Origin: Sphaerosporella brunnea
Lineage: Eukaryota > Ascomycota > Pezizomycetes > Pezizales > Pyronemataceae
DNA length: 64,000 nt
Direction: 5' to 3'
NCBI GenBank assembly: GCA_008704415.1
Contig: VXIS01000044.1
Span: forward strand, 153,825-217,824
Positions 7,331-36,173 of this stretch are shown piece after piece. The notes under the pieces were generated by a model that ran no database searches, was not told where the DNA came from, and was given only the letters and a program-made list of their open reading frames with translations. The translations under genes and the position numbers were made by a program. Numbering within the stretch: position 1 is the first letter of the stretch; each line of letters starts with the position of its first letter.

Positions 7331-8301
7331 ATGATTTTATATCTTTAGCAACCAAATCTAAGCTTGATCTTTTTAGAGTACATTCCACAGTTTTCTGTGC
7401 ATGCTTCACTTTATGTCGCTCGTTCTATCAGTTCCAAGGTTCGATTGGGACATCTCAACCACTACAACCCCAAACAACTCCCAGGATCACAACTCTGCCG
7501 CCAAAATTTCTAGAGAAAAGACAGGGGTGGAGGCTATTAGTAAGAGGGGGAGCGGCCAAAGGCAAACTAAACCTGGGGGGAGCGGCCAAACCAGAGGTAA
7601 CGAATGAGTCCCTATGATATAACCCCCCCCCTCAATGAAACCGGACAAAAGTATCGCTGTCCCATCTCCATGAAATAGAGTCATTAGATCAGTAGGAACT
7701 GATCATCCTTGCGTAAATATACTAGGCTGCCATACTCTTTTGCCGCGTTTTACAGCAAGTAGAAGCGTATGAAAATCTACGGCTACACAGTTAATGGACC
7801 AGATTCTTCAGCGCACACCGCTTGAATTTGCACCAAAGGCACAAACACAGATTCCATTTGCATACAATCAATAAAAACCCAAAACCGCGATCCATCAAGT
7901 CATACAGCTTCCCAACAGATTACAACAATTTCCTTTCCCCCATTTGCACACAGTCCCATCCCATTCCAAGACCCAAGAACAAAGGAAAAGGAAAGCAAAA
8001 CCCAAAAGGACATAATCCGACATAAGAGAGGTAGTTCCCATTTCCGGGAACGAAAAGAAAAAAAAAAAAAAAACCCCCAACAAAAACCGGAGCAAAAGCC
8101 AAAAGCCACGACATAAACGACAAGAGAAAAAAAACAAACCCCAAAAATAAAAATAAAAAAGGATCCCATCGAGAACCCACGATACACGCTTATGCAAACA
8201 GACAAGCATAAGCTGTAAAATCGTTGCATCGTGTCATCCAATCGTGAAAATAACCCAAGAGAATAAGCGGAAAGAAATCCATCAAAACCGTGAAATCGCC
8301 A
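7331..8301. other. intergenic / 3' UTR region between nudC and the coiled-coil gene
   Basis: Convergent 3' ends. The sequence is A-rich on the + strand (poly-A tracts near 8056-8073 and 8126-8135), with a direct repeat of GGGGGAGCGGCCAAA at about 7548 and 7577. Short frames here have no coding character; no gene is supported. Confidence 0.6.
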
Positions 8302-15263: not shown

Positions 15264-16367
15264 TATCAGTGCGACAGCAGCACTACCGCATATTTTGAAT
15301 TTTGAAATCTACATGATTGCCAAATTAGGACCGCATTATTTGGACTTTTTGAGTGAAACAATGCGCATTTATTTCACTTTTGCAATACGCAATGAGCATC
15401 ATCAACCTCATCGTCGCCCACATCAAGGCGGCACAACGCGCAAAGCCCAAAACTGCGGGAACCTCTGTAAACGATTGTGTTGATCAAAGTAACACCCAAC
15501 TCTGACACTCTCGTGACTGTAAGAGTGAGAATCGCAGCGTTATGAAACGTAAAAAACGACTTCGTGGTATTTGCAGTTCTTAAGCCAAACACTACATATT
15601 CTCATCTCGAGGAGGGGTTCCAGCGTGCGGTCGTTCAAAATACAGTAGTCAACCCCAGGCGAGGTATTTGGGGACAATAGTGGCCGTTTCGAATGCAGAG
15701 TGCGGTACCGTATAATCTCATATATAAGGTACACCCCCATTTTGGGAATAGCGCTGTTTTTAGCTGCGCTTAACCGCAAGCAGGCTAGCGCGGCTTGGCG
15801 CTGCAACGTCGCTCCACCACTTCACAAGAGCGGGGAGAATGAATTTCAGCACCTATTGTGATCTACACATATTTCCCAACAATGACCTCGATACCATCTG
15901 TTGTGTCCAATTCTGCCTGTGCAATTCCCAAAGAATTCCTCTTTTCCTTTAAGTTTTCAACTGCCTCAGCACCTCTTGAAGATAAACTACAACGGGGTTC
16001 AGCTCAACGTCCGAAGCCCAAACGGAAACCAGGTCCTCGGAAGAAGCCAATTTCTGCTGTGCCACCAAAGAAATTTGCTCCTCCACGAGTTTCACCTTCC
16101 CGCCAGCGTCAATCCTTCACCACTGCCTTTAAACTGGGAGTTCTTACATGGTGAGAGCATGGTACAGTTCAAACTCCACGTGGGAGCACTCGAGCTCCCA
16201 CTCGAAACGACGTTGCAATACGTTATGGCCTGAAACAGGTGGCCTCGCATCCAGTCCCCTGGTGCCGACCGCTGGCGTGACCCAGGAATCGCTGCTACGG
16301 CGTACAACCGGTGATACGCTAGTCTAGCGCGTGAATCCCAAAACGTACTGTAAATGTTGGTGAGAGG

Positions 16368-16399
16368 GCCTGGAGACTTCCACCTCACCAAAATCGATT
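16368..16399 (+). repeat. left subterminal inverted repeat of the inner element
   Basis: Starts GCCTGGAGACTTCCACC and ends CAAAATCGAT; the inverse copy is at 26089-26119. It lies about 128 bp from the left terminus and 13 bp before the DUF6589 start codon, so it is either a transposase-binding site, a promoter/5' UTR element, or both. Confidence 0.85.
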
Positions 16400-16411
16400 C
16401 TTCCCGACAAC

Positions 16412-19210
16412 ATGCCTACTACCCGTGGAATCGCTTCGTGCATCACCGGCCAGTCAGAACAGAGTAATCCCGTTCAACCCGGGACGCCGATCGAGGAATC
16501 CCGACATCACTCCCGGGGAGCTCAACCTGGCCCGCCAGGGCTTACACCTCTGCTATATCTCGATTCTGAAGCTCGTAGAATGGGATTCTCCTCACTTGCA
16601 CAGGCCGTACTACACCAGGTTTCGGAGTCCTCAGACCTCGATCACTCTGCGCTCAAGGATTATACCGCACTCTTGACGACAATCGTTGCGCAGAAGAAGT
16701 TCAACGCGACCATAGCAAGCTACAACAAACGATTCATGCGGGGTGTCACCCAGCTGCTTACGGACCACAGCATGAAGGAGTTAGATGTCCTCGTCGCAAA
16801 GCCTGAATCCCGATTCAATATGAAGCGTTTCACACCAGAGCATATCGAAAGCTTCAATCCCACCCTACTCCAGAGTGCCCACCAGCGATATACACCGACG
16901 TTGCACGCGATACTTCATGGTATCCTGCACAAAGACAATTCCCGACCGGCCCAAGATGATTCCCGCCGTAAACAGCGTCCCTATGATCGGGATTTGGTCG
17001 CCACCGCGGCCATCTGCATGCTATCATATGCCCGACACAGGGAATCCAACGGTCTGCAGGTGCTTACACATTTGGGCAATCAATCGATTTCAATGTGCTG
17101 ACATCGGCAGGCTCTCGTGGGATATTTTCTATTCGCAAGCAATACTTCCAAGAGGACAATCGAAGTCTTGCATAGGTTTGGTCTGTCCGTCTCCTACGAG
17201 ACGATTCTCAAAGCACTCCGGCACAATGCGGAAGCCTCACGAGACCAATTGCGCCGGGTAGTCAAAGAAGGCCGATTCATGATATCATTCGACAACATGA
17301 ACTTCTATCGAAATGTGCGCGATCAGAGAGCCCACAATCGGAGTCATCAAGTTAATTACACAGCCGGGTTCATCTGCGTCATGGATTGCGATTGTGGGTC
17401 CGGACCAGACTGCGAGTGCGGGGCATTGCCGGAGCGAAGTATCGATCACAAGGCGGCGAGTTTGCTCAGCTTCAAGGATTTCGATATCGATTCCGACGCC
17501 CAGATGTATCTCCATAACGCGGCCGATTATCTGTTCGGTACCGTGCTCAAGCGCCATTTTGCAAGCGCAATGAGCAAGCAGAAAGACCCGGAAACCCGTG
17601 GGCCCCGCTACTCAGTGCCGGATCCCCCTTTGGCCCATATCCGCGTCAAACAGGATCGGGCCCGGATACTGACATTCCAGACGCTGGATATGGATGAAGC
17701 GTCTATATCCGGGACAATCGATATCTTAAAGGCGCTCGTGCAGGAGCTCGGGATCGATTGTGAAGATGTGCTAGACCGCAAGATCATGCTCCATGGGGAT
17801 TACTTAACTGTGCGCAACGTAACTCGCGCTATGTTTCGGAGATCGGTTGAACCTGAACCTCTTATGCGATTCGGCTGGGTAGAGCCGATTGCTGGGTTGT
17901 TTCATCTTCAGATGAACGTGCTGAAGTTGATATTTGGGGTTTTTGAAGGAGAAGCGGCGGATCCAGGCTCTCTCAAACGATTCAGCACTATCCTTCGCAG
18001 AAAGGGTGTTAGCAAGGATATCAAGGATTTCCACGCATGTGACGATTTCTTCAGAATGGTCCTCGAAGCCTATATCCTGGCATACTATCAGCATTATGCG
18101 GGGCTGGCATATGCCAATCAGCTGAATGCTCACCTCGAAACGAGCGATTGGCCCGCCCAAATCGCACTGGCGGTGCGCGCTGGGATTGATCCTTTCATGG
18201 TATCGCGGGTGCGTTCGGTGGCCCGCGAGTCAATCGATGCTGCCGTAGGGGTCCGCATGGAGGAGGAGCGTGCGAAATGGGAGGTGCTTAAGGCGCAGCG
18301 GCGATTACAGCGTCAAAACGGACAATCGCTTGCAAATTTGCCCCGCAAGGATTGGAAGAACATCCAATCGAGGTTAACCGCGGATTTGGGTGCGGGGATA
18401 AGAGACATTGTCAAAGAGAACGCCATGTTATTCCTTAATTGTGGTCTCATCTATCTCGACTTCCACGACGCATGTCGGGGAGGATTCAGTGGGCGCGTAG
18501 AGAGGTGCGTCAAGATGTTCGCAATCCTATTTGCGGGTGGGAAGCACGGCAATTACGCCGGTGAATGTATCCATCTTGTGGCGTGTTTAGCCCGTATGTG
18601 GAAACCGGAATTCAAACAAGCTTGGCTGGACTACTGCCTGATCAACCCGAACTCCAGGCCTGACATATACTGCGCAATCGATAGGCACGGCGAAACAGTC
18701 ATTCGAGAGAACAAGGACAAGGTGCGGCCGTCAGCCAATGCTAAGGATGATCGATTTTTGAGAGAGGTGGTGGCACGCAATGTTGGATCACTCCGGGCAA
18801 GCAAGCATGTAATGGCCGAATGCACCGGGGCAACGGACTATCGAAATCGACATACGGAAGTGTCACGGACTGAGGATATCAGCTTGATCCGCAAAAAACT
18901 GGTTGAAGCCCATGTCTTTACACACGTACCAGGGCGCGGATCTGATTCCCACCCCGCAGGCCGATTGAAGGAATATGAAGATATCATCGGAAGCGGGTAC
19001 TGTGCGATGGCCAGTGGGATTCCGATTAGTAAGTATCTGGCAAGGGCACGGTTTACATGGGATTCAGAATTGCCTCAAGAAGACGATGCGGATCTGGTTG
19101 AGGAAGCTGAATTGGATGACGGTGAACCCGGTTGTGGCGTGTATTCAACTGGGCAGAGGTTGGATGAGCCCGGGTTCAATGAAATCGATGACAGTGAGGA
19201 CGAACTGTAG
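16412..19210 (+). CDS. DUF6589-type protein, putative transposase of the inner element
   Basis: Exon 1 is 16412-17059, the intron 17060-17110 (51 nt, GTGCTT, CTGAC branch, CAG, phase 0), exon 2 is 17111-19210; 915 residues. Exon 1 ends in SYARHRESNGLQ and exon 2 starts ALVGYFLFASNTSKR, giving the uninterrupted family core (VLHRFGLSVSYETIL, FISFDNMNF-like strand, a Cys cluster CDCGSGPDCECG at about residues 310-325, LHGDYLTVRN and GWVEPIAGLFHLQMN). A C-terminal half with GGKHGNYAGEC and an acidic tail follow. I recognise this as the fungal DUF6589 family, which has no established function. HGD and nearby acids suggest an RNase H-like nuclease fold, but this is inference. It is convergent with the RecQ gene, stops only 23 bp apart. 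Confidence 0.75.
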
Positions 19211-19233
19211 AAGAAGCAAGAATCATATTGTAG

Positions 19234-21669
19234 CTAGCGGTCGAATCGTGGAGGTTTATACGGGATGAACTCGTAGGCAATCGGGCCGGCGGGCGTCCGA
19301 GGGGGAAATGAATGATGCCGGAAAGGCCAATTTGCACCCTCGTCGATCCATTGGACAACATTGAAGGTGCGGGGCATCGAGGCCGATTGCATTGTCCCGG
19401 GCGTAGAATGGATTGTCCCGGGGGTAGAATGCATTGTCCCGGGCAGGGATCGCATTGTCCCGGGGGTAGGATGCATTGTCCCGGGCGTAGAATGGATTGT
19501 CCCGGGCGTAGAATGCATTGTCCCGAGCGCAGAATGCATTGTCCCGGGCAGGGATCGCATTGTCCCGGGCGTAGAATGGATTGTCCCGGGGGTAGAATGC
19601 ATTGTCCAGGGGGTAGAATGCATTGTCCCGGGCGTAGAATGGATTGTCCCGGGGGTAGGATGCGTTGTCCCGGGCAGGGATCGCATTGTGCCGGGCAGGG
19701 ATCTTTCACTCCCGTGTTGATTGGCGGTCTGGAGCAAAGCCTGACGGATACACTCCAGTAATTCCAGAGCCTTCGGCCCAATGGCGGAATTGGGTATCGA
19801 AACTTTGGGAAGAACGGCCTGCAGATCGTCGACGCTGTGGAGTGCCATACAATTGGCGATTATCAGTTCTCTTTGAGAGGCCGGGAGAATCAGATGATAC
19901 GTTTCCGGCCAATGTTGCTTCAACCAAGAGTCGATTGTTTGTCGAACTGCTGTAATTGCGGCCTGGCCAGGTTTTCGAACTGCAGGGCCGCGAGGTAAAG
20001 TCGATAGCCCCGGGGCAATCGACTCAATGCACCTGACGCTCAGTGAGGCCGATACGCCATTGAGAACACAATTTTGAGCGTCGTCAGGATCCAGAAGGTA
20101 AAGCATATTGTCACAGCAGCCCGGGGCACGATTTTGGGATTCATACGCTGCTGAATCGCCAAAAGTGGCAAGCGCGGCGCGGCATCGACAACCAAGAGTA
20201 TTGACATAGAAGAGCAACCCGGGGTCCAAACGCGCACAGGCCGTGTCGGTTTTACCACGCTCGGAAGGATTCTTGTCTTTGTAGAATGAGCTAATCATGT
20301 CCCTCACCCTGTTGCGACTCACGGTGTCCCCGGGAATCACTTTCTGAATGTAGTCTTGATACTGTTCGGGACACTTGGGGCCATTCGCGAGGAAGAACCG
20401 TGAGTCCGCAAAGACGATTGAGATTGCCGCAATTCGGGTATCACGCCCGGCACGGCCTAATTGCTGCCATAGTGCAGCCATGGTAACCAACTCGCTGAGT
20501 TTCCACTGCACTATGATCTTAACATCCGGGACATGGAGTCCCATTCCCGCGGCATCGGTGCAAATCAGGATTCTGGTAGACCCGTCCCGGAAGGCGTTCA
20601 TGAATCGATCGCGAGTAGCTGCTTCAAGGTTCGAAGAGTAAGGTCTGATGACTGATTCTGCGCGTTCAGCCCAAAAGTGCTTGGCTCGGGCTGCAAGCCA
20701 AAGGTAGATCTTGTGGGCCTCATCTATGTTGTCGACAAAAACCATTGCTTTGTGGATTGACCATATCGGCCCCTGACGGGATAGCAGGAAATCGAGCTTA
20801 GAGTAGTCAATCGATTGCTTAGTGGGAAGCTTAGAGACAATGTGCATGATATTCGGCCGGTCAATGCTGAGTCTGTACAGACGGGTCCTTCCAGGCCTCA
20901 GCTGAAGCGATTGGCTGACAAAGGCCAGAACATTAGGCATAAGAGTTGCCGAGAGCGCAATGATCGGGATCGTCGGGAAATGAGCTCTCAACGCCCCGAT
21001 ATTGAGGTAATCCTACGTGCTATTAGCAGCCCGTACTCAGCGAGTCAGTGTAGCCATGATTCACCTTCCGGAATTCCCTCCAGCCCCAGACGAGGTGCGA
21101 TTCGTCGACAGCAACTGCCTTCAAACGCGTGCAAAACTGATTGCTTCTGCCTCGTATGGTTTTCAGCCAGAAATAAGACCCGTCGCGTAACAAAACTTCG
21201 GGTGAAGCCAGGACCAAATCGAATGCACCACTGTCAACTTGATTCCAGAGGGCAGGGTTAACCATGAGGTTTTCTCGAGTCAGCTCAGCGACTCTGAAGC
21301 CTTGATCGATCACCCACTGGGCCTATTCTCTCATCCTCCAAGTCAGCTCTAGAATCCCAAACGCTGCGGGGTACAAACCTGATCGCGGATCAACGCCAGT
21401 GTAGGTGAAACCACCAATACAATCGCTTTCTCGGAGACCGCGAGAATCGCCTGATAAACCAGACTTTTCCCGGAGCCTGTCCCAGCAATCACAATGACAT
21501 CGTCGCCCCGAATGCAATCCGCTGTGGCACACGCCTGCCATGACTTCGGAGCAAATCCAAATCTCTGCTGTATCTTATCCGCGAGTCGCCTCGGTGCCGG
21601 TGCACCTGAAGGATCGACTTCAGTCCAGGGCTGTCTCCCGGCTGTTTGGTGGATAGCCCGCTGAGTCAT
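19234..21669 (-). CDS. RecQ-family DNA helicase with heptapeptide-repeat tail
   Basis: Exons 21669-21379, 21322-21065 and 21012-19234; introns of 56 nt (GTTTGT, CTGAC, TAG) and 52 nt (GTGAAT, CTAAT, TAG), both phase 0; 775 residues. Superfamily 2 motifs in order: Walker A GTGSGKSLVYQ, Ia SPTLALIRDQ, DEAH variant VAVDESH, III ALSATL, V CTDAAGMGLHVPD and VI QQLGRAGRD. A Cys-rich segment (CRCRAAL, GCCDNML) may be the RecQ zinc-binding region. Residues about 615-720 are 15 copies of a 7-residue repeat of the STPGTMH type. RecQ proteins unwind recombination and replication intermediates. Its position within the element suggests a role in its excision, copying or end processing (inference). No HRDC domain is seen. 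Confidence 0.88.
19391..19705. repeat. 21-bp tandem array inside the RecQ coding sequence (15 units)
   Basis: Fifteen in-frame 21-bp units, each starting ATTGTCCCGGG on the + strand with a variable end (CGTAGAATG, GGTAGAATG, CAGGGATCGC). On the coding strand they read as heptapeptides such as STPGTMH and SLPGTMR. The same ATTGTCCCGGG core fills the intergenic array at 21750-22470. Confidence 0.92.
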
Positions 21670-21749
21670 GTCCTCCGTGATCGTGATGAGTATCGAATCG
21701 TTGGTTGCTCAGGGAGGCCCGGATCGCATCAACGCGTTGCGGGTTGAAT

Positions 21750-22470
21750 TGTCATTGTCCCGGGGGTTGCAGTCGATAGTCCCGGGTTAAAGCACATTGT
21801 CCCGCGACCTCAGGGGCCAATCATTTTTGACGCGACGGGACAAAGCACATTGTCCCGGGAGTTGCAGTCGATAGTCCCGCAGCGCTAAGGGGACAAAGCA
21901 CATAGTCCCGGGGGTTGCAGTCGATAGTCCCGGGTTAAAGCACATTGTTCCGCGACCTCAGGGGCCAATCATTTTTGACGCGACGGGACAAAGCACATTG
22001 TCCCGGGGGTTGCAGTCGATAGTCCCGGGTTAAAGCACATTGTCCCGCGACCTCAGGGGCCAATCATTTTTGACGCGACGGGACAAAGCACATTGTCCCG
22101 GGAGTTGCAGTCGATAGTCCCGCAGCGCTAAGGGGACAAAGCACATAGTCCCGGGGGTTGCAGTCGATAGTCCCGGGTTAAAGCACATTGTTCCGCGACC
22201 TCAGGGGCCAATCATTTTTGACGCGACGGGACAAAGCACATTGTCCCGGGGGTTGCAGTCGATAGTCCCGGGTTAAAGCACATTGTCCCGCGACCTCAGG
22301 GGCCAATCATTTTTGACGCGACGGGACAAAGCACATTGTCCCGGGAGTTGCAGTCGATAGTCCCGCAGCGCTAAGGGGACAAAGCACATAGTCCCGGGGG
22401 TTGCAGTCGATAGTCCCGGGTTAAAGCACATTGTCCCGGGACAATCAACTTTGACCCGAGGGGGTATTGG
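21750..22470. repeat. higher-order tandem array upstream of the RecQ gene (243-bp period)
   Basis: The marker TTGCAGTCGATAG recurs at 21767, 21862, 21915, 22010, 22105, 22158, 22253, 22348 and 22401, giving spacings 95, 53, 95, 95, 53, 95, 95, 53. So two 95-bp units and one 53-bp unit make a 243-bp higher-order repeat, copied almost exactly. Each unit contains CATTGTCCCG, CATAGTCCCGGG or GATAGTCCCGGG motifs and, in the long unit, CCAATCATTTTTGACGCGAC. It lies between the RecQ start and the 3' end of the small Pro/Ala-rich gene. Confidence 0.92.
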
Positions 22471-22569
22471 ATATTGTCCCGCAGTGCGTGTCAACGGCGA
22501 TTCTCTTTGTCATTCGCAAACCTCATGCAAGAACCAACAATTCGATACAAAATTCGATTAACCACGAAA

Positions 22570-23240
22570 CTAATAACCTCTATGGGGCCTCGGCAGCCCC
22601 AACATCACCAGGTAATCGTTCCTGATCTTTTGTATCGGGGTATTGGCTCCCCAATCGAAACCATAGAAGGACCCCCAAGGGGTCCACCGCCCAAGATCGT
22701 TCGAATCAAACGCCGACTTTCTAAATGGAGCGCTTGCGTGGGCGTCCCCCGACTCCTCGTTGACTATCTTCAGATAGCCATACCTAGGAGCATGGTCCGG
22801 GGCGGACGCCTCGTATCGTGCCCGATTGATTGCCCGGACCTGGACGTTGTATCGTCTGTACTCTGGGTCAGCAATCGTATAGTATATCAAAATCGATTGC
22901 TTGCTAACCTATTGCTTGCTATGACCTGCATTGCTGAAGGTGGATCGGACTGCATGAGGGCATGCAGTTGTTGGGGAGTCCATTTCCGCAGAAGGACTGT
23001 TGGTCTTTGCAGAAAGACGGCGTGTGAGACCGAAGCTTTTGGAGTTGCCTTAGCACCTCCTGCAGGAGCCTTTGGAGCGATTGGTGGTGCCTGAGCAGGA
23101 GGTGCTGGAGCGATTGGTGGTGCCTGAGCACCCCCAGCAGGAGGTGCTGGAGCCATTGGTGGTGCCTGAGCACTTCCGGGAGGAGCATTTGGAGCGTTTT
23201 TTGGTGTGTTAGCACTTCCAGCAGGAGCTTTAGGAGCCAT
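22570..23240 (-). CDS. small Pro/Ala-rich protein of the inner element
   Basis: Exons 23240-22909 and 22855-22570; the intron 22908-22856 (53 nt, GTTAGC, CTGAC branch, CAG) joins phase 2 to phase 1 exactly; 205 residues. The first 65 residues are a degenerate repeat of the APPIAPAPPA type; the rest is a compact domain with VFLQRPTVLLRKWTPQQLHALM, SNRRYNVQVRAINRARYE, PRYGYLKIVNEE and a C-terminal aromatic-rich part (GRWTPWGSFYGFDWG). I do not recognise a family. The position between the array and the 825-residue gene, all on the same strand as RecQ, implies it belongs to the element. Confidence 0.7.
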
Positions 23241-23450
23241 GGTGTATGTGTGTATGAATCGAATCCAACCTGTGGATCGCCATCTTTAAAGGGCGTTATT
23301 GACAGCCCATCTCGAAGGTGAATTGACTATAACAAGGAAACCCAACCTGACGCCTAAAACCGATAAACCCAACCTGAAGCCTGAAACCGATACCGCACCA
23401 ACAAAGAAACCGATCCCTTCCCGATCCTTCTATGAGCAATCCCCCCCTTA

Positions 23451-25983
23451 CTACGAGGACTCCTTAACATCTGGGGATTGCTGTTGCGGGGAATCGTCTC
23501 GCCCACTAACAAACCTCGATATGCCCCGCTCTATGTTGATTCCCGTGTCGGCCGGCGCACCCTTTTCTGCCTCCATGGACGACATAATGGCCTGCTCCTC
23601 GTCGATATCGTCGCTGAGCGCAGGGGGTCCAACGTCGCAATACCCTTGAGGTTGCCTGGAATCGCCAAGGTGAGGCAACTGCACCTCATCCTCTTCCTCC
23701 GCGTCAGAATTGGGCAGGTGCCTATCGTCGTCGGAGTAAACATCAGATGGCCCACCCATGATCGAAGCCATGCTGACCGGCGGGGAATCGATTCGAACAG
23801 GTGTCGATCGATCTACCCGCGAGCTAGTGAGGGACGCAGGCGTTGAGTCTGCCGTGGAATCGAAACTGGAGTAGGCCCGCTGACCTACTGACGGTGTCGC
23901 GCTACGTTTTGACCATGCCCCGAAGGATGGCGATCTCGTAGTCTCCGGAACCCATTGCGGCTGCTGAGGCTGCGACCGCCTCTGATGCTGCTGATCCCGC
24001 TGATGCTGCTCCCGCTGCTGAACCTGCGGCGGTTGCATGTGGGGCTCCCAGCCGCTGCGGTGCAGCGGTGGGGGCGGAATCGACTTTCCCGCCTGCGGAT
24101 GACCCTGGGAGACATTACGGGCGACACCCCGCCTATCAGCGATTGGCGCAGGGAACTGGGCACCCGCCGCCGCATCCCGAACAGGAGTTGGAATCGCATC
24201 CAGCGGGGGGAGTGTCGGCGGTGAAATCTGCGGCATGAATCGATTCCCGCGTTGGGCTGACCATCCAGCCATTGGGGCAGGGAATTGGGCTCCCGCCGCC
24301 GCATCCCGAACGGGATTTGGAATCGCATCCAGAGGGGGGAGTGTCGGCGGTGAATTCTGGGGGATGAATCGATTCCCGCCGCGTTGTGCGGACCATCCCC
24401 GAGGGACTCTGTGCTCTGGACCAGTTTTTGCTCTCAAATCGGCGATCGCTTTGCTGTTGCGGGCCGTGTCACGATAGGACTGCTCCAGTGTCTGGCGCTG
24501 AATGCGCCATTGCTCATAGTCCCTCGTTGCCTTTTCACGGATGGCAACCAGTTCATTCCGACGGGCCATCGAAAGGATCATCTGGCTGTCTATCCGGGCC
24601 AATTCCATAGCTATGTAATCGTCCCATAGCTGCGCCTTCTTCCAGATCGGTGCCTTCGCAAAAGCAACGGCGAAATCAGTCACGAACTGATCTGAATCAG
24701 TCGGGATGAAATCGCCTTTTGGCGTAAACACGCCGTCATCGGGATTGTAGAACTCCGTTGGCAAATCGAAGCCGCTGAGCGGAGGAGCACCACCTCGGGT
24801 GCTTTCAGTCTCATAAATAGCCCTGAAAGCTTCCCGCTGTTCGGCAACAGTCTCCTCTGCTTGTCCCCGCGCAGAACCAATTGCCTCCCGTGGAAATGGC
24901 AGAGCCCCGGCCAAATCCGCTTTCGATTTCAAGACGTTGTCGAAATCGAATTTTGGCGGGGGAGCGCTGTGGGCCTCCTGCCGGGCAGCCTTGAGCGATT
25001 CTAGTGGCGGCAGCGGCTGCAGCGGACGACCCGCCGTAGGAACGATTCTGGGTGTCGCCTTGAGGGCCTCGGCATGCGGCGACATAATCCTACGCAGATC
25101 GAAAATTCGCTGCTCACGGCCAATCTCTTTCTTGCCGGTCCGAGCATGGTGAGCAATGATATGGGAGCGGACCAGCTCCAGGGCGATTCGCGTGAGCTCC
25201 GCATACCACATCTCGCCCCTATCCTCACTGCTGAACCACCGGACCTGGCCATCTGCGGCCATGGGCACTCTCAAACCACGCAGGCATAGGAGCCAGAAAT
25301 CGGTGCATTGGGTCAGACCCCACTGCAAACCCGATTTTCCGTTCCACAACAACAAATCGTCGGGCTTTGCGGGGTTTGGAGGCACGCGGGAATCTCTCGA
25401 TTTGCGCCGGCTACACAGCGAATCAATTAGCTATCACCAGAAAAACGATTGCCGCGGCCACTCACACAGCGCTTGTACGGGCTTCTATCCAATCCTTTCC
25501 GGAGTCAGTCGCGATCCAGCTTTCTGCATACGCGCGCACACGCTCCAAGAAAAAGCCTTGGAACGTGTGAAAGCTGTCCTCGAAACGCTCGGACAGCTTC
25601 TGTGCAGTTTCTGAGGAATCGCTTTCGGCGAACGCGGGTAAGGTTCGCCGAAAAAGCTCCGCACGCTCGTCGGGATTGAAATCCCGCGAGGCCGTGAACA
25701 GCTGCGCCCAGAAGTAATCCAGGCCGACTGCATAATCGTCTGCGGAGACGGCGTGGCTCAGAATGGCCGCGGAATCGGGATTGACGTATGCCTCGTAGCA
25801 GGCGTCCGACGAGGCACAGGGATCAATCGAATTGATGCCGTCACGACCGGCACGCCCTTTACGAGGGGAGACCAATTTGGATTGACCCCGAGGGACCGTT
25901 CGTGCCTTCTTTGTGGCTTGTTGCCGTGCATCAGGAGTGGGCGAATCGCCCGTGCGCTTTGGGACTGCAGGTCGAGAAGTCAT
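23451..25983 (-). CDS. 825-residue accessory protein of the inner element
   Basis: Exons 25983-25466 and 25410-23451; the intron 25465-25411 (55 nt, GTGAGT, CTAAT branch, TAG) links phase 2 to phase 1 exactly. The N-terminus is basic (TKKARTVPRGQSK, SPRKGRAGRDG), then an acidic helical domain (DDYAVGLDYFWAQLF, DERAELFRRTLPAF). Exon 2 opens with a Trp-rich conserved-looking block (LLLWNGKSGLQWGLTQ, DFWLLCLRGLRVP, WYAELTRIALELV). Residues about 500-600 contain two near-identical segments (SPPTLPPLDAIP ... AAAGAQFPAP). The C-terminus is Gln/Ser/Pro-rich and acidic. No known family recognised; a DNA-binding or structural partner of the DUF6589 protein is only a guess. It reads inward from the right end, mirroring the DUF6589 gene on the left. 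Confidence 0.75.
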
Positions 25984-26088
25984 TGGTCTGGACGGGGATT
26001 TGTTGGGGGGTACACGGAAAATGCTCGGAATTGGTATGGGAATCGATTCTGAGAGAGCGAGAGGAGAATTTCGACGAGCTGGAGGAGT

Positions 26089-26119
26089 ATCGATTTTGGT
26101 GAGGTGGAAGTCTCCAGGC
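26089..26119 (-). repeat. right subterminal inverted repeat of the inner element
   Basis: Inverse copy of 16368-16399, essentially identical over 31 bases. It lies about 184 bp from the right terminus and about 105 bp upstream of the start codon of the 825-residue protein, so each outer gene has one copy in front of it. Confidence 0.85.
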
Positions 26120-26129
26120 TCTCCTACGA

Positions 26130-26303
26130 GTTTGAAGTTTGTATAGATCCAGAATGGTTAGCGTGGAGCTAGTCGCTGCTACGCAGTGATCGCGTAGAAT
26201 TAAGACCGGCTGCACCCCAGCAGTACTAACGCCTCTACGCTGTCAGGGCGAATAATCAAGCCCGGCCACACCCCGGAGTACTAGGAGCCTGGAAACGAGG
26301 CCA
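26130..26303. repeat. imperfect direct repeats at the right end of the inner element
   Basis: Two imperfect copies of a block containing AAGACCGGCTGCACCCCAG and AAGCCCGGCCACACCCCGG respectively, each followed by AGTACTA, lie at about 26200-26232 and 26257-26289. TCGCTGCTACG at about 26173 also occurs in direct orientation at about 16289 near the left end. Such subterminal repeats often bind transposases. Confidence 0.6.
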
Positions 26304-26601
26304 TGAAACAGGTACACTACGTCAATCGATGGAGACAGGTTAGGAAACTATTTAGTGCGGTGCATTGAAACTATTTGTTAGTTTTGAGCTAACCTTTTAT
26401 TGAAGAATGAGTCAACATTACTCCTTTTGAAGCCTACTCAACGAACATACCGACCCTGCCGAGGCCGGTGGCCTTTACTTGAAGAAGCTTTACTCAAAGC
26501 TTTCGCTGCTCGGCGTGAAGAAGGAAAGATTGTCCGGAGAAGATGGTTCGAACGTTCAAGTAAAGCGCTATTCCCTACAGTCTATCCGGAAAGCACCCAT
26601 G

Positions 26602-27413
26602 TGTAACGAGGCTCTGTCTACCAGAGTGTCGTGGAATTGAACTCAGGACCTTAAGAAACTAAATCCTAAACAATAGAATTTTAAGGGCTATTCTGTCGGG
26701 TGGACACTAATGGTTCTTATTGCTGAAGATAAAGGGGTTCTCTCGGCGGAAGCAATCCTACTTATAGTAGAACGCCGCTCCAGAGACTACCGTCTCCCTG
26801 AGTAATACTCAGCCTTTACTCCTTGCTGGCTTTCCGACAGTCTCTACGACTGCGGGCGTCAGGCGCGCACAGAGATCGCCCCACCTTCCTATGACTCACT
26901 CTTTGATTCCAAATCATGAGTCATAGACATGGGTCGCACCCGGATACCCCGCTCTGTAAGCGTTGTATTCTCGTGTTGCAGGAAGATGCTCAGCCCTATT
27001 GGCTCCATCTCCCGATCTTCTGCGTCGCATGCCCTACGCAACAACCACACTTACTATGGAGGTTCTAGGCCGAGTGATTCTTCCCTTTTTCGGCTCTACG
27101 CCTTCCGGTTGATCACTCCTGACCCCTCCGATCGTCAGGCTAGTTCCTGGAACAGGCAGGTCAACGAAGATATCTCGGAAGAGCTCTAACAACAGCCTAT
27201 ACTATAGTTATCTCCGAACCGGATGCTCTTCCCAGGTAGCGTCCCACCTGAGGCACCCGATCTCCGAGTTCTTCTATAGCGTCACTCAAGCTAGCTACTA
27301 TGATCCGGAGCCACCCGGCTATCACGTGCCCTCGAGGCGATCACTATGCAGACTCTATTCTATTTCCCTAGCTGACTACTTAGAGCACATGTCACGTGAC
27401 CATACCCGTGACA
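26602..27413. mobile_element. solo LTR (812 bp) inside the outer transposase gene
   Basis: Starts TGTAACGAGG and ends CCCGTGACA, the TG...CA ends of a retrotransposon LTR. The 5-mer CCATG flanks it exactly (26597-26601 and 27414-27418). Deleting it plus one CCATG restores the transposase frame (PESTHV continuing into FNMSQGW). No internal retrotransposon genes are present, so this is a recombination-derived solo LTR. Short frames within it are not genes. Confidence 0.88.
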
Positions 27414-28559
27414 CCATGTTTTCAACATGTCTCAAGGCTGGTTCGCCAAGTTTTTATCCAGAAACGAAATTGCAATTCGCATTGTCACCAACAAAGCACA
27501 GCAACCGCCTAAAGAGTATTGCGATATGATTATCAACTTTCTCTGTTTCAACCGGAGAAATTCCCAATTGCGTGATGGTGCAGAAGATACACTACGAGGG
27601 GTGATTACAGCGGTGGGCCGGTTTTTACTCTCGCACATTCTCAACATGGATCAAACACCACTTCCTTGGGAGTATCTAACTGGACGAACTTACGATTTCA
27701 AAGGCAATAAAACCATCTGGATTCGAAGTAAAAGGTTCGGTTGGGATAAACGTCAGGCAACAATACAACTTACAATTTTTGCTGATGGCGTCGCACGAGT
27801 TAAGCCTCTTCTGATTTTTCGTGGGGCAGAAGAAAACAAAAAAGCACCTCGAAAGCAGGAGGAAGCCCAATACGATCCTCGGGTGGTTGTTAAATTCAAC
27901 CCTAAAGGTTACGCTAATGGTTCAATTATTCTTTTTTGGCTGCAAGAAATGCTGCTACCTGTCCTTGGTGATCGCCACACACAGCCGGCGCTTCTAGTAA
28001 TGGATCTTCTCAAGTCCCACAAGACTGACACCGTTAAAGCCTTTCTGCGAGAGCAGAACATTACACTCTCGCTTGTTCCAGCTGACTGCACTGGTCTCGT
28101 GCAACCCCTTGATGTTTCTGTAAACCGGCCTTTCAAAGATATCCTCAAACAGACCATTGATGACGAGCTGGACCAGCTGGAGTCTGCAGATGTTCCAATT
28201 GTTAAGGAGAGTGAAGTTGGAAAAATGCGGGTGATGATGACGCGCTGTGTGGGAAAAGCTTGGGAAGAGTTCTGCGCAACCCGACAGGAGGTCATTGTAC
28301 GGAGCTTTCGAAGTCTAGGCCTATCACTTCCTATTGACGGAAGCTGTGATGACGAGCTATCGGTAAAAGGGTTTGGATCTAGAGGTACTGCGGTCTGGCA
28401 TTAAAGAGTGGAGGACGCGAGGATGCGCAGTGCAGGATGAGTTTTCGGATACAAGTGATTCTCAAGGCGAGGATCTTGCCTCAGCTGATGGCAGGTCTAA
28501 ATTTTGACAGCAGCGATGAAAGCGGCACAGAATCTTCCCTAGGCATCCCGGACATCAAC

Positions 28560-29210
28560 TTGATTGCGGGCGGCGCCCTCCCTCACGGCAGCGACTCACT
28601 CACGGGCGGGCGACTCATCCATGGGCAGCGGCTCACTCACGGGCGGCGATTTGCTCACAGGCGGCGATTTACCCACGGGCGGCGATTTACCCACGGGTGG
28701 CGACTTGACTGGCTCGGCGGAAGGTCCAGCAGCACCGGTGAGAGGAAGTAGAAGAGGGCGGCCAAGAGGGCGGCCAAGAGGGCGGCCAAGAGGCCGTGCT
28801 GGCAAGCAGGCAATAGGTAGCTCTTGATGCTCTTTCACTCCTAGTCTTTCCCTAACGTCTGAACGCTTGAAAAAAACTCCAGTCACGGATGACGACTCGC
28901 TCACAGGCAGCGACTCACTCACGGGTGGCGACTCACTCACGGGCGGCGACTCACTCACGGGCGGCGACTCACTCACAGGTAGCGACTCACTCACGGGCGG
29001 CGACTCACTCACGGGCGGCGATTTGCCCACGGGGGTGGCGACTTGACTGGCTCGGCAGAAGGTCCAGCAGCGCCGGTGAGGGGAAATAGAAGAGGGCGGC
29101 CAAGAGGGCGGCCAAGAGGCCGTGCTGGCAAGCAGACAATAGGTAGCTCTTGATGCTTTTTCACTCCTAGGTCTTTCCTAACGCCTGAACGCTTGAAAAA
29201 GCTCCGATCA
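28560..29210. repeat. duplicated minisatellite tail of the outer transposon, with AT-hook coding
   Basis: Two stretches of an 18-bp unit (type CACTCACGGGCGGCGACT) at about 28590-28700 and 28888-29036, each followed by a near-identical block of about 170 bases (28735-28880 and 29077-29208). The block encodes an AT-hook-like RGRPRGRPRGR run in one frame. The duplication is about 345 bp apart. The 18-bp units read as GGDSLTG-type peptides, suggesting the C-terminal tail of the ancestral transposase was repetitive and then duplicated. Frames are broken, so no intact gene is called. Confidence 0.7.
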
Positions 29211-29793
29211 CGGATAATGACTCGACTGGCTCGGCGCAACCTCCGGAATTCATCAGATGAAGTGACAGGCTTGTAGGAGTCAAGCGAAATTATGTAGTGC
29301 AGGACCTCTTTCCTGCTTTGAGTGACACTGAGTATGATGAAGATGATGGGGTTTGGTTTTGTTTTAAGGACGAAGATTGAAGCGCGCGCAACGCTGTTTT
29401 TTGGCCGGCACCCCAATCTGATATTGGACTAGTTCAAAATAGGTTAGTGCGGTTTGTGAAACCGCGCTAGTCCCAAAATGGGGGTGTACCTTATATATGA
29501 GATTATACGGTATTGCAATTGATGCGGCATTTTATATTGAATAAGAATTTATATTCGATTTGTCAGAATGCCGTAGCACCGCGTAATTTAGATTAATCAG
29601 GTAGCCCTATCACTGGGCTTTTTGTTACATATTACCTCTATCCAGAATCATGTTCATACGGATCCACCAACCCACCCGCCACATCACCCGCCACATCACC
29701 CGCCATATCTATTCAGACCCACCAGACGACCAAACCCACGACCAAACCCACGACCAAACCCACGACATCAATCAAAAAACTGCCGCAGCCGCA
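29211..29793. other. right end of outer transposon and 5' region of the F-box gene
   Basis: 29211-29470 is non-coding transposon sequence, 29471-29510 the right TIR. Beyond it, 29660-29770 has short tandem repeats (CATCACCCGCCA and CGACCAAACCCA, about three copies each) in the probable 5' UTR of the F-box gene. Confidence 0.6.
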
Positions 29794-31199
29794 ATGGACA
29801 ATGCCAACGACGACGACGACCATTCTCACCTCCAACAATTATCCGTACCTTCTCCAATCCCACAGGAACGAACCCTTCTCTCGCTCCCCAACGGTTAGTT
29901 TTGCTGCCCTCCACTGGAGACCTCAACACCTGACTTTCGCCAGAACTGTTGATCCAAACCCTGCAATTCCTCCCCGGTCATGACTTAGCACTCATATCGC
30001 GTGTCAACCGCCGTCTACACAACCTCACCTCCCTCCCCAAATTATGGAGCTCACTTCTTTTCTCCCTCCGCATCGCCACTCCCAGCCCGTATGAGAGCTT
30101 CAAGTCTCTGTACGGGAGCCTGCATCCGCATCTCTGGCTGGCTCCGCGGCTTTGGCATTCGGACCGACGTTTCAGCGGCCTGGTAGTCGCCACACGCTAC
30201 AATCCATCGACCGGTGATATCGCGATCCACCAATTGCTAGCACCACCATGCTCATCGAGAATAAACACCTGGTCGCACGATCCATCCGTTCTGGTCTCGA
30301 CCTTCACTCTGACCGTCAAGCTATGGGCCGAGCCACTGTTAACTCTCTCCCCATTTGGACGACCGGATCCAGACACAGGCGAGCTGACCTACCCCTCCAA
30401 CCTGTCCGCCGTATCCACAACCCTGCTACGAGCCGTGCCCATTCCCCTACACACTCAAAATCCGAACATGGCCCTATGGCCTCCATCTACTCTTCCCGCT
30501 GCAGAGCGCGCCAGGAATGTCAGCATCTCCGCCTTCAAGAGCAAAGGCCATCAACCCACATCCCTCTCGGAGGCATGTGTCGACATCTTCCGCCTCCGAA
30601 AGCAGCTACGCTACCACCCTACGCACGAGATGTCACAAGTTGAGACCTTTTCCGCTCTGCAAGAGGAGTGGTACACCCCAGCCCTTCCACCCCACTGAAA
30701 GGTGTGTGGGTCGGCGATTACCACCTCCACGGCATCGAGATGGTCCTATTCCTTCAGACCGCACCACATAAACTCGAGGCCGTAAAGTTGACGGGCGATA
30801 TCAACGTCCCGCGCGGTGAATACACCTTCGTGGTCGATGACCTGTCGCAAGTCCTAAGGATTGCCGATGAGCCCGAATGGCCGGGCGCAAAAATCATCAA
30901 AGCTCGTGGCCAAATTGCAGATCAGCAATTTGCGGATCGTAAGTCCTCCTCCTCGATCCAGATGCTCATGCCCCTCCCTCCAATCACTAAACAAACTTTG
31001 GGAAACAGCCCACTTCATAGACTGCGAATTCATCTGGATCAGCAACGACGAGGCCGCGTTCCACTGGATCTTCCCCGGCCCCATCGCAGACCAGCGCATC
31101 AGCAAGTTCTTCAGAATCGACGTCGACTGCTTCCTCTTCGGCGAAGGACTCCAGAAGGTTACCGACGACACCGATGATGAGACTACTGATGATGTTTAG
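29794..31199 (+). CDS. F-box protein, three exons, one frameshift
   Basis: Exons 29794-29893, 29944-30938 and 31009-31199; introns 50 nt (GTTAGT...CAG) and 70 nt (GTAAGT...CAG). The junction LPN-ELLIQTLQFL restores a canonical F-box (ISRVNRRLHNL, LWSSL) at about residues 30-75. The second half carries the conserved fungal segment KGVWVGDYHLHGIEMVLFLQ and ends FRIDVDCFLFGEGL. Between WYTP and PLKGVW, at about 30678-30690 in a C-rich run, the frame shifts by one base; one extra C would restore it. F-box proteins recruit substrates to SCF ubiquitin ligases through Skp1; the substrate is unknown. Either a consensus error or a recent lesion explains the shift. An upstream in-frame ATG at 29650 lies in repeats and was not chosen. 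Confidence 0.75.
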
Positions 31200-31790
31200 A
31201 CGAGACCACTCATGATGTGTAACTGTAACTACTGTAATAGTAATATATCACAATATATCACTCGATATGATACTTTTCTTGTCTATTCTCTCCTCCCCAC
31301 CTGCATTTATACACAACGGGTCGGCTAGAAATCTCATTCGCTGCTGCATCCCGTATAGTAAGTAAAAATAAAAGGAAAATGCTTATACTACATGCACACC
31401 CAAAATATGTTCTCACTCACTCACCAAAAATGGTTCGAAAGAAACATTCCCATCGGATGATGAACCGCGCACAGGATACCAAAAAATGAGCGAGAAAGCA
31501 CGCACGCAGAGCAAAGTAACACACAATTGCCTCCCCTCCCGGTTGCACTATTGCAGAAAAAAAAAAAATTGCCGACAAAAAAAGCAGCAAAGAGAGGATC
31601 ACCAGAAGCAAAGGAAAAAAAAAAGTGTAATGGTTTAAAAACATCGGCGTTAAAAAGCGGGTATATGCCTTGGGCTGGGCACCCCGAGTATGAATCCTCC
31701 GACTGGGACAGGACAAGAAAAGCAGATGAAAACAAACAAAAGAAGCAACCGAAACGCACCCGCATCCAAAGATCAAGATACCGCCCAATC
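31200..31790. other. intergenic region between convergent F-box and AP180 genes
   Basis: About 590 bases with A-rich tracts (31560-31568, 31615-31624). Frames on the minus strand here are hydrophobic by base composition only; no gene is supported. Confidence 0.55.
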
Positions 31791-34001
31791 CTATTGCCAC
31801 GCGCCGTTGGTGGGAGGTGTTTCAGTGGTAGTGTTAGATCTTGGGAACACCGGTACAGTTTCCAGAGTCTCCAGCCCACCCATCGTGCCCGTCTGCCCCG
31901 AAAAGTTCCCTTGCATTTGAGCCTGCATCTGCGCTTGCTGCTGTTGCAACATCATGCTCGCCCTGAAAGGATTTGTGCCGCCAGGAACTGACAGTGCGGA
32001 TCCGCCGGTGGGCTGTGGCGAGATACCGGAGCTGCGCGCGAAGGGGTTGGTGCCGCTGCCAGCTGTCGTGGCGGATCGTCCCACCATGTTATTCTGTGTA
32101 GGCGATGCGGCGGTGAGAATTGTTGGCGGCGTTTGCGTTGTGCGTGCGAAGGGGTTGGTCGATTTTGATTGTTTGTTGCTGCTGCTGCTGCTGAGGTAAT
32201 GACGGAGTAGAGGTGCCAAACCCTCCGGTGGAGTTTGCCATCAGCATCGACTGGCGGAATGGATTGTGGCCTGTCTGTGATGGGACCTGTAGGCCCGCTG
32301 CTACTGCTGGTGGTGGTGGTGGTGGCGGTGGTGGTGGTGGCTGTTGTTGATGCTGTTGCTGCACAAACTGCTGGGGTATAGCAGGAAGCTCGGGGATAAT
32401 GTGTTGCTGGTCCTGCGGTGTGTAGCCGCCAAACCAGTTCCGGTGAAATGCGACTGCACCGGTTGAGCTGGGAGTTCGCTTACTGGTTGCTGAGGGAAAG
32501 GATTATTGTTCTGTTGGTAGCCCATCGGGAAACCGCCTGTTTGGTTGGGCAACAGCTGGTGTTGGGACATCATTTGCTGCTGCGGCGGTACTCCGTACAT
32601 CTGCTGCCCATAGGGATTTGCCATCATCTGCGGCGGCGCAATCCCAGTCATTTGAGATGCCATTTGTTGCTGCTGTACTGGTTGGTTTGCAAACATTGGG
32701 GTTTGCTCCGTCTCTATGCTCTCGAAAAAGTCGATGAGATCTGGTGCAATCTTTGGGGGCTCTTTTGGTGCTGCTGATGCAGTTGGCGTAGGTCCCATTT
32801 GTGCAGGTGCTGTCTTTGCGCCGCCAGGTTGCGGGGGCTTCGCCGCTCCTCCGTTATCCTTCGCCTCCTTCTGAGCCAAATACTGTCTCCTGTTTACATC
32901 GAAATCAGGATCGTTCAAGTATTCTTCCAGGGACGAGGTCAAGCTAGTCGGCGCATGCTTTATATTGGGGATTTGCAACCGTGTCGATGTCTCTACTCTG
33001 CGCGCCGCTTGGAGAAAATCCACCACATCTGCCGTTTGTTCGGTGAAGACCTTGTATATTCTGAGGGCCCGCTCGGCATCGTAACGTGACATTTCGAAGT
33101 AGTGTTCTGTGAGAGATGATTAGTCCTGCATTCACAATTGTACGCACAGGTGGGCTGGCTGACCAAGAACATTGATAACGCCCTCATTGACGACATGGAA
33201 AAGCTCCAAAAGGTCCGACACCAGCAACCTGAATGCAAGTAGCGTAATTTCATTGTCCGCCTCGTCGTCCAGGAACTGCCAGCACACCGATCAGCAACAA
33301 CCTTTTGGGTAGTCCAGACCTGTATAAAATCGTGGCTTACGTTGCACTTAAGCAATGCCTTTATTTGCAACTGGACACACTCGACCTCCCGCAACAACCC
33401 TTTCTCGACGCTCAGCTTTCGTAGACGGCCTTGGCCATCCCGAACAAAATCCGTTCGTACATCGCCGTATGTCCTCGCGCGCTCAGTCAAGTAATTAGAG
33501 TAGTTGCGTATGTTTCGTCCTTGTATCTGTGCTGCGACGAGGTTAGCCGGGCCCTCGGAGCTGCGCCTGAATGCCACTACGAACCGTCCGAATAGTGCGA
33601 CAAAGTTATCAGCCGTGGGTTTCGCCGGAGATACGCAATGTGACATCTCGCTCCCCCTCACGCATCATGTAATGAACGACAATCAAAGCTTAAAGACAGT
33701 CTAGACGACATCAGCACTGCCGACAAAAGACCAACTGAGCCATGATAGCCTACAGTCCATGAATTATCTCTCAGCCTATTGTTGATGGCTCTGAACACCT
33801 CCGCAATCCCCGCCTCACCCGCATGCGTCGCGATAAGAATGTGCTCGACATATTTGGCCTTCGGTGCTGCGAGCTTGTGTTTGGTAGCCCCCTACTCCGC
33901 AGTTAGCATTCCCTTCTCTGTCCCCTGATGCGACTTCCAACTGAGGTGAAGTTGGTTTTGCGACAACTGACCTTCACCGACTTCTCGAATGAACTCGCCA
34001 T
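31791..34001 (-). pseudogene. AP180/ANTH clathrin adaptor with several frameshifts
   Basis: Exons by homology: 34001-33972, 33891-33754, 33700-33585, 33531-33341, 33275-33164 and 33106-31791. The ANTH domain is clear: MASSFEKSVK-GATKHKLAAPK, KYVEHILIATHAGEAG, QGRNIRNYSNYLTERAR, LLAFRLLVSDLL, HYFEMSRYDAERAL. The tail has the clathrin/EH-binding features of the family (NWFGGYTPQ, several NPF motifs, Gln- and Pro-rich). However, the frame is broken at least four times: twice in exon 3 (near 33690 and 33622), near 32445, and in a CAG run near 32180. The protein normally links PIP2 membranes to clathrin in endocytosis. Either it is a decaying gene or the consensus is locally wrong; loss of a G or C in a short run would explain most breaks. 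Confidence 0.75.
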
Positions 34002-36173
34002 GGATCCTCTTGCGGAAGCCTCGACGTCCCTCCTCCGGCGGCCCAGGTAGTATTCTCTTCCCAGTGCGCTGGGCAGGTCGCGAATGACTTTGCCGAAGCG
34101 CGCAGCAGGACTTCCTCTCTCGCGGTACGTCACTGTCTCTTGTTTTGGCGGTGCTTTCGGTTGCGAGCCGTGTCTCTTGCACTTTATCTCTCTCTCTCCT
34201 TGACGGTAGGTAGCTGTTGTGGGTCAGTCGCTCGCTGGGGGTTCCGGGAGTTCCGAGCGCGCTATTGTCGCGACTTTCGGTGATGGGGTGGCTTGCACTA
34301 ATGCAGCAGCGAGGGTGGGGATGAGGATATATCTATTCGTCGAGATCGCGATCGCAGATTCAAACGACAGACGCTGCTGTCAGTTGGAGAAAACGAAGTG
34401 TTTATTGCACTTGAGGTGGGGGGGGGTGCCGGCCCAGGCGCAGAGTGATGTGGCAAGTTTCACGAAAACAACGGCGATCAGGGAAACGAAAGTGGTTCTG
34501 CAGGTGGGGAGGAGAAAAACGGTCGGACGCGTGGATGGTGTTCTCTGTGCCACCACCACCTCGAGATCTCCCGTGTAGCTGCCTGCCCGTCCGCGGTGAT
34601 CGTCGTTTGATATTCTGATGAAGAAGAGACCAGGCAGGAACCTCCGGAATATAATAATCATCTGGTCCAGGAAGGTAGGTTGTGTTTACTGTGATTAGCA
34701 AAGTGGTTCCCATGCTTCTAACCCAAAATCATCCTTCCATTCGTCTTATTCAGAACAGACCTTCGGCTTGTATCGCGGACTGATACGGTTTATAAGGTCG
34801 CCGGTTTAATAAAGAGTTTGCGATTTCAATATAAATTCTAAATTTTATACTCGGAATCCTCGGTTGCCATCGTCGATTTAGAATTTAAGATGAAATCGCG
34901 AACTCTCAAATATGTCGTTTGCAAATTTCCACTCCAAACAAAGACAGCGAGTGATACATTGTGAGGTGAGAGACAACCCGGAGAATGGGGTCTTGAAATG
35001 TGTGGTGGAAGTACCTTCCACCCCTGGCGAGAATTCGAAGACAATGGAAAAATTCAAGATGAGAAGATAAATGGTTAGCTCGGAGCATTACTAGTGATAT
35101 CTGATGACTTGGATCACTGTGAATGTGGGCATGTAGGTCGAAAATGTAGCAGTCCTACAACATCGTACCAGCATGAAGGCCGATATGATAGCGTAGTTGG
35201 TCGGCGTACCGACAACTCCGGGCAAGACAAATACCACAGTCTCAGGTGTTCATCCGTTGCCCTTACTCTGCCATGGTGATCAGAGAACGATCATACCAAA
35301 CCTTGCTGTATCGCAGACATATACTGAGCCAAAGGATCTCTCGCCTAGGACTCCACCTTGTGTGCGATTGAATGAATGAATGCCGAAGGCGCGAATTCAG
35401 AGGAAAGAGACCACAAGATATCACAGAGGAAAAGACAAGTCGCATATGGAAAAACAAAAAAAAAGACTTGATTCAAACTACAAAGGAACAAAAACAGGAT
35501 CATGAAAACAGCGAAAATGAGAGATAAATCCTTCCAGTTTGGGTCAGAGATGCCATAAAGCGCCTGGAAAGGTAACAAGGTATGTTGTGCCCAAACGCCT
35601 ATATCACCATCCACCAACCACCAACGAAGCAAAGACCCTTGAGCCAGCCCGCCGAAGCGGAGGAGAGTACAGATGCACGAGGGCGGGGGGATCTAATCAT
35701 AGACTGCACGCTAGGCTTTCATCATCTGTGAATGTTATTAGCATTGAAATTGGAGGTTTGTGAAATGTGGGAGCATACTTGTAAAACTTGGAAGGATGAG
35801 GAAAAAAAAGGGAGAACGATGGCACGTTGGGCTTTTATGAGACCTTTTGGCCTTGGCCGGCCAAAATTCCACGTGACTTTGGCTACGCCTGCCGTTCCCA
35901 GAAATGCACTTTCACCATAAACTAAGCGGCCACGGAGTGATGTACAAAGGACGTGCAGTGAGAAAAGTGCTGCTGCTCATTTAACTATTCTTCCACGAGT
36001 TGTCCTCTAGCTGCCAGTGGTGATTAGATACAATTTCTGGCGAGTGATCGCGAACGCAAGTTTAGCACTCCAAACTTCTTTTGCTTGGCGGACACTCTAA
36101 CGAAGTAGGTTGAGAACTCAGACACGTCGCCCCACCCCCTCCTCGCCCACACGAGACGAAGCTCCCAAACGCC
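34002..36173. promoter_or_regulatory. 2.2-kb divergent intergenic region (AP180 / mt-AspRS)
   Basis: Holds both promoters, a 94-bp palindromic element (34813-34906), and otherwise nothing recognisable. Short frames on either strand show no protein-like character. Confidence 0.5.
34813..34906. mobile_element. 94-bp palindromic element (possible MITE)
   Basis: Arms 34813-34842 (starts AGAGTTTGCGATTTCA) and 34877-34906 (ends TGAAATCGCGAACTCT) pair at about 26 of 30 positions around a 34-base loop. No clear target duplication. It may be a MITE remnant or a transcribed hairpin. Confidence 0.55.

Follow-up and report, generated by a model that had tools for sequence, protein, structure and literature searches.

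The window analysed here, a 64,000-nucleotide stretch of the Sphaerosporella brunnea genome, contains a 10-kb segment of four genes between short direct repeats. What kind of mobile element is this, and which of its proteins is likely to move it? A sequence-only reading had suggested a possibly new class of DNA transposon. We examined the ends of the segment, its insertion site, its copies and relatives in the same genome, and its genes. The element and its boundary features are as follows.

16231..16239, unstranded: left 9-bp target-site duplication, TGAAACAGG, read in the sequence
16240..26303, unstranded: whole element, 10064 bp, here named an AcademH-type DNA transposon; delimited by shared ends and paralogous empty sites
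16240..16247, plus strand: left terminal inverted repeat, 8 bp, TGGCCTCG, followed by 3 bases and CCAG; read in the sequence
16364..16401, plus strand: subterminal inverted repeat, 38 nt, 95% complementary to 26086-26123
26086..26123, minus strand: partner of the subterminal inverted repeat
26296..26303, minus strand: right terminal inverted repeat, 8 bp, CGAGGCCA; read in the sequence
26304..26312, unstranded: right 9-bp target-site duplication, TGAAACAGG, read in the sequence

The TGGCCTCG/CGAGGCCA ends and the exact TGAAACAGG duplications reported earlier are present in the sequence at these positions. Measured from the respective ends of the element, the left subterminal repeat is 124 bp in and its partner at the right 180 bp in; the former precedes the DUF6589 start codon by 10 bp, and the latter precedes that of the outermost minus-strand gene by approximately 100 bp. 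The interrupted host repeat is a transposase remnant, with a DDE_1 domain (Pfam) in its downstream part and stop codons elsewhere in our reading; we take it to be of the pogo/Tigger type. With the element excised and one TGAAACAGG retained, this remnant reads continuously through ...RYGLKQVHYVNRWRQ... in one frame, as the sequence-only reading had claimed, and intact paralogues occur in the same genome. Five paralogous places of the host repeat align across the insertion site (contigs C512, 94%; C281, 88%; C495, 75%; C66, 75%; and C425, 74%), and the two that were read through it, C512 and C281, each carry a single ...CTGAAACAGGTAC... with no element. A perfect 9-bp duplication combined with an 8-bp terminal inverted repeat arose by chance in 40 of 1000 Markov-resampled right flanks of the window element, so the window site alone is not overwhelming; it is the other copies and the empty sites that settle the boundaries. 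Together these confirm a mobile element with proven boundaries in S. brunnea.

The genome of this ectomycorrhizal fungus (50.6 Mb in 640 contigs, with the window on contig C379) was searched for copies using the left 471 and right 613 bases of the element, an approach that yields lower bounds. At least six left ends (C379, C79, C1, C618, C469 and C539) share the same first base, and at least four right ends (C379, C79, C310 and C323) share the same last base; C618, C469 and C539 are represented by left ends only. The second full-length copy, on C79, spans 9957 bp with GGAAGAACC on either side. The sequence CATGTAGAC precedes the left end on C1 and follows the right end on C323, where just 147 bp of element adjoin other sequence, so that the two are probably halves of one insertion. 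Two further contigs look like duplicate or allelic versions of the window insertion and were accordingly left out of the count of separate insertions: the right end on C310 carries the window's own flank (99.77% identity over 10016 columns), and C631, which has this flank as well, breaks off after 12 bp of the element. Boundaries were the same throughout, with neither differing ends nor a missing duplication among the other copies, and all three insertions with both ends readable, counting the inferred C1/C323 pair, have different 9-bp duplications (TGAAACAGG, GGAAGAACC and CATGTAGAC). Five other copies, compared with the window copy over their left 2.7-3.1 kb, have identities of 99.3-99.8%, and transitions account for 51 of the 59 substitutions among the left-end copies. 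The C79 copy retains all four genes with the helicase reading interrupted, the C1 copy has one TGA within its PF20231 match, and all four gene models of the window copy are uninterrupted. The element looks recently active.

The genes of the element, all predicted spliced models with GT...AG introns, and two tandem arrays are located as follows.

16412..19210, plus strand (exons 16412-17059, 17111-19210): DUF6589 gene, 915 aa, probable transposase; Pfam PF20231, spliced model
19234..21669, minus strand (exons 21669-21379, 21322-21065, 21012-19234): RecQ-type helicase gene, 775 aa; Pfam, model
19388..19696, unstranded: 21-bp minisatellite within the helicase coding region, core ATTGTCCCGGG
21753..22442, unstranded: array with a 243-bp period, core ATTGTCCCGGG, upstream of the helicase start codon
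22570..23240, minus strand: small Pro/Ala-rich protein, 205 aa, one 53-bp intron; model
23451..25983, minus strand: 825-aa protein, one 55-bp intron; model

This gene set agrees with the cargo described previously, namely a DUF6589 protein, a RecQ helicase and two further proteins. The DUF6589 gene has one 51-bp intron and matches PF20231 with an E value of 4.2e-66; its product differs at 2 of 915 residues from P0001 (hypothetical protein FN846DRAFT_886795, S. brunnea). The helicase gene has introns of 56 and 52 bp, and its open pieces match the Pfam domains DEAD and Helicase_C. With residues 1-490 as the query, its best solved relative is RecQ5 (E 5.2e-27) and its best NCBIfam model is recQ_fam (E 1.4e-40), at 139.5 bits, below the curated cut-off of 219.8 bits. 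The two open pieces of the 205-aa protein gave no Pfam match at E up to 0.1. For the 825-aa protein, 7998 scored candidates included three homologues, from S. brunnea, from Pyronema omphalodes (573 aa, 54% identity over 59%) and one JGI protein. The two arrays with the ATTGTCCCGGG core flank the catalytic part of the helicase. In the 64-kb window the motif AT[TA]GTCCCGGG has 27 plus-strand matches, all of them inside these arrays, with one minus-strand match at the edge of the second array, and the motif is absent from both strands of the stretches examined at four divergent loci (C579, C430, C467 and C24).

These loci emerged from a genome search with PF20231, which gave 14 matches: six from the window family and eight pieces at the divergent loci. 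A window-like helicase adjoins DUF6589 at three of the four (C430, C579 and C467), and none matching the window's was found in the 20 kb examined around C24. The C579 element (97384-109832, 12449 bp) has an exact 9-bp duplication, AGCGGTTGG, and TCCTCTCG/CGAGAGGA ends, a combination as perfect as this arising by chance in 3 of 1000 resampled flanks. Its TCCTCTCG end is followed by 4 bases and CCAG, resembling the left end of the window element. No second occurrence of the left end was found in the genome; the right end matches six other contigs, five of which (C124, C400, C423, C169 and C450) come within 3 bp of that end, with the match on C112 falling short of it. A scan for duplications plus ends, with at most one mismatch in each, found six pairs at C579 (3, 3 and 1 in shuffles) and seven in the window (4, 5 and 2); only perfect pairs were counted, one at each. 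The same scan gave one imperfect 10-bp pair at C430, where the contig stops inside the fourth gene, and no pair at C467, where the contig stops soon after the helicase. The four ends of both families fit T..YCTCG, three or four bases and CCAG, a pattern made after seeing them; in its loose form (T..YCTCG/CCAG) it has three further matches in the window, by chance.

C579 and C430 have a common gene order, consisting of DUF6589, a gene that we call gene X, the helicase and a fourth gene. Between the two loci gene X is 25% identical (E 1e-39) and the fourth-gene product is 66% identical over 394 aa. At E up to 0.01 neither gene has a match in the window DNA. The 825-aa protein does not resemble gene X (hhalign probability 0.1) and reaches a best E of 0.076 against all open reading frames of the three related loci, and no counterpart of the 205-aa protein was found at the four divergent loci. 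The expectation that the four genes travel together elsewhere is borne out by the C79 copy, interrupted helicase included, but at the divergent loci DUF6589 and the helicase were the only genes found to be shared.

Several observations bear on the function of DUF6589. Two structure models were obtained, the second replacing the first (pLDDT 60.7), and Hermes was the top match for both. The domain model was closest to Hermes (hAT) and ISCth4 (IS256-type), with moderate scores; the likeness lies in a predicted RNase H-like core into which a helical segment is inserted ahead of the last catalytic residue. In one comparison of the second model glucokinase ranked level with the transposases, a tie that we read as probably reflecting an RNase H-like core in common. 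Invariant acidic residues of DUF6589 are laid out in a manner resembling a DDE triad, for which D277, D446 and E701 are the candidates. Homologue searches, in which the 7991 candidates sharing most words were scored, returned 10 and 14 proteins; all those bearing an organism name are fungal, and one of the 10 weakly matches a bacterial transposase model (DDE_Tnp_ISAZ013, E 0.16). On the strength of the RNase H-like model, the acidic-residue layout and the recurrent pairing with a RecQ-type helicase, DUF6589 is probably the element's transposase, in keeping with the earlier proposal of a transposase or essential mobility protein.

Kojima is said to have described AcademH in 2020, reportedly in Mob DNA 11:15, as a lineage of helicase-encoding DNA transposons in animals and fungi. 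According to two other papers, AcademH elements encode a helicase and have duplications of 9 or 10 bp, the length being related to the helicase (PMC10045372), and Basidiomycota, Ascomycota and Mucoromycota harbour them in low copy numbers (PMC10799480). A 2019 account of fungal Academ reports that 81% (1,568/1,938) of copies have protein domains that can be recognised, PF00270 and recQ_fam among them, and that the copies are often annotated as host genes (PMC6416283). The window element likewise encodes a RecQ-type helicase (21669-19234) beside a candidate transposase, with 9-bp duplications at the three two-ended insertions and at C579, and with a fungal, specifically ascomycete, host; like the fungal Academ copies, it contains DEAD/DEAH helicase (PF00270) and recQ_fam domains. 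Since helicase type, duplication length and host group agree with AcademH, we named the element AcademH-type, a kinship judged from published descriptions rather than from transposase sequences. Beside these two genes the window element carries those for the 205-aa and 825-aa proteins, a possible difference from published AcademH elements. With AcademH already in print, the new class of DNA transposon proposed earlier is not supported, and we rejected a new superfamily as the main reading; the statement that no standard superfamily has this gene set came from a list that left out Academ. The explanation that we favour, with a probability of roughly 0.82, is a recently moved DNA transposon of the AcademH lineage, with DUF6589 as its probable transposase.

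An alternative is that DUF6589-RecQ elements form their own DDE superfamily, unrelated to Academ, and share the helicase and 9-bp duplications with it by coincidence. Pfam gives DUF6589 as a domain of unknown function, a full-text search of the literature did not find it by name, and the AcademH likeness is drawn from descriptions and not from an Academ reference sequence, all of which would suit such a superfamily. It nevertheless appears rather unlikely, given the match to AcademH and fungal Academ in print on three counts: the type of helicase, the length of the duplications and an occurrence in fungi that includes Ascomycota. We consider it very unlikely that DUF6589 is cargo of an element moved in trans by another transposase: the window element and C579 have DUF6589 and the helicase in common, with equal duplication lengths and similar ends, and the predicted fold and residue layout of DUF6589 also argue against this.

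Among other superfamilies, MULE elements often make 9-bp duplications, hAT elements make 8-bp ones and Kolobok elements target TTAA. A MULE or hAT element with a captured helicase could accommodate the 9-bp duplications in the first case and the likeness of the DUF6589 model to Hermes and ISCth4 in the second. However, no MULE or hAT Pfam domain was listed for the window pieces at E up to 0.1 or for any of the 10 DUF6589 homologues at E up to 1, no sequence match to hAT or IS256-type enzymes was listed for DUF6589, and the duplications are not of hAT length, which makes this reading highly improbable. KolobokH, which combines a RecQ helicase and a DDE transposase in fungi (PMC9587614), was rejected on its duplication and is scarcely credible here, as TGAAACAGG, GGAAGAACC and CATGTAGAC are 9 bp and none is TTAA, and the window helicase is a separate gene on the opposite strand.

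For the AcademH-type element, we infer the following cut-and-paste route. DUF6589 would act as a DDE transposase whose RNase H fold contains an all-helical insertion, as in the hAT and IS256-type enzymes. The protein would bind the 8-bp ends, and probably also the inverted subterminal repeats, cut the element out and insert it at a 9-bp staggered cut, repair of which by the host would leave the 9-bp duplication. A probable task of the RecQ-type helicase is to assist in opening or processing the ends or the gap, and the 205-aa and 825-aa proteins may be accessory.

The fourth gene at C579 and C430 is of separate interest. The top solved relative of its product is a Coprinopsis TET dioxygenase, a weak match (E 0.012 with the sequence alone) that was no better with a two-sequence profile (E 0.091); in the alignment an HxD motif and a downstream H are in register, and no Pfam dioxygenase model matched at E up to 1. 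We take the SpBr code in the family name Helitron-1_SpBr to stand for S. brunnea. That family is named in PMC12730594, which counts 11 TET-carrying transposon lineages in fungi, Academ not among them, and whose main text does not contain the word Academ. We did not find a TET-like gene in an AcademH-type element in print, Academ and JBP co-occurring only with JBP in reference lists, so that a TET/JBP-like gene at these two loci is possibly new to this element type.

A broader reading, which we offer tentatively and regard as possible rather than probable, is that DUF6589 serves as transposase to a broad group of helicase-dependent DNA transposons. In Pezizales the members of this group would have a transposase-RecQ core with interchangeable accessory genes, and some of them (C579 and C430) would include a TET/JBP-like dioxygenase, possibly for the removal of silencing marks. 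In its boldest form this group would be a superfamily separate from Academ; in its milder form it would be AcademH, adding a twelfth to the 11 TET-carrying fungal lineages in print.

If the favoured reading is correct, Pfam DUF6589 would acquire a function, as the DDE transposase of AcademH-type elements, and host genes annotated as 'DUF6589 domain-containing' would be transposon genes. The near-identical copies, two of them full length, and the paralogous empty sites make the need of the element for its own RecQ-type helicase testable. It has been proposed that fungal transposons carry dioxygenases to escape methylation (PMC12730594), and the TET-like gene at the sister loci, if confirmed, would tie the DUF6589-RecQ group to that proposal. 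What these data add is a function that DUF6589 probably has and another element type in which TET-like dioxygenases may reside.

The element lies within a degraded transposase repeat carrying a DDE_1 domain, which we take to be of the pogo/Tigger type and which has at least five paralogues in the S. brunnea genome. The right flank of the insertion recurs on another contig of this genome, C310, with 99.77% identity over 10 kb (C310 28500-42920 versus window 24401-35540). C310 also holds the same insertion, but its element portion begins only at element position 8162, preceded by other sequence; relative to the window, this contig could be allelic, duplicated or chimeric. A truncated right end was also found on C323, and this is probably the partner of the left end of another copy located on C1.

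Window 15843-16239 and 26304-28404: host transposase repeat, interrupted by the insertion
C323:228946-229092: truncated right end, 147 bp of the element only, before other sequence
Window 19388-19696 and 21753-22442: two minisatellites, one on each side of the helicase catalytic region

Both minisatellites share the core ATTGTCCCGGG in identical orientation, and one of them is translated as a repeated seven-residue stretch close to the helicase C-terminus.

The divergent DUF6589-RecQ loci on C579 (stretches L044 and L045) and C430 (stretch L043) each contain two further genes.

L045:1-1512, ending in L044, minus strand: gene X of C579, between DUF6589 and helicase
L043:67-1536, minus strand: gene X of C430, between DUF6589 and helicase
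L045:5717-7477, minus strand: TET-like gene of C579, near the right end
L043:5704-6885, minus strand: TET-like gene of C430, near the right end

The gene X products are 25% identical between the two loci, and a Pfam search with them returned no matches above the cut-off. The right-end gene product exhibits weak similarity to a fungal TET dioxygenase (E 0.012; 0.091 using a profile), in which the HxD and downstream H of the dioxygenase fall in register. Among loci with copies of the C579 right end, the one on C169 includes TET-like gene sequence across 32 residues only; this sequence is also present at those on C124 and C400.
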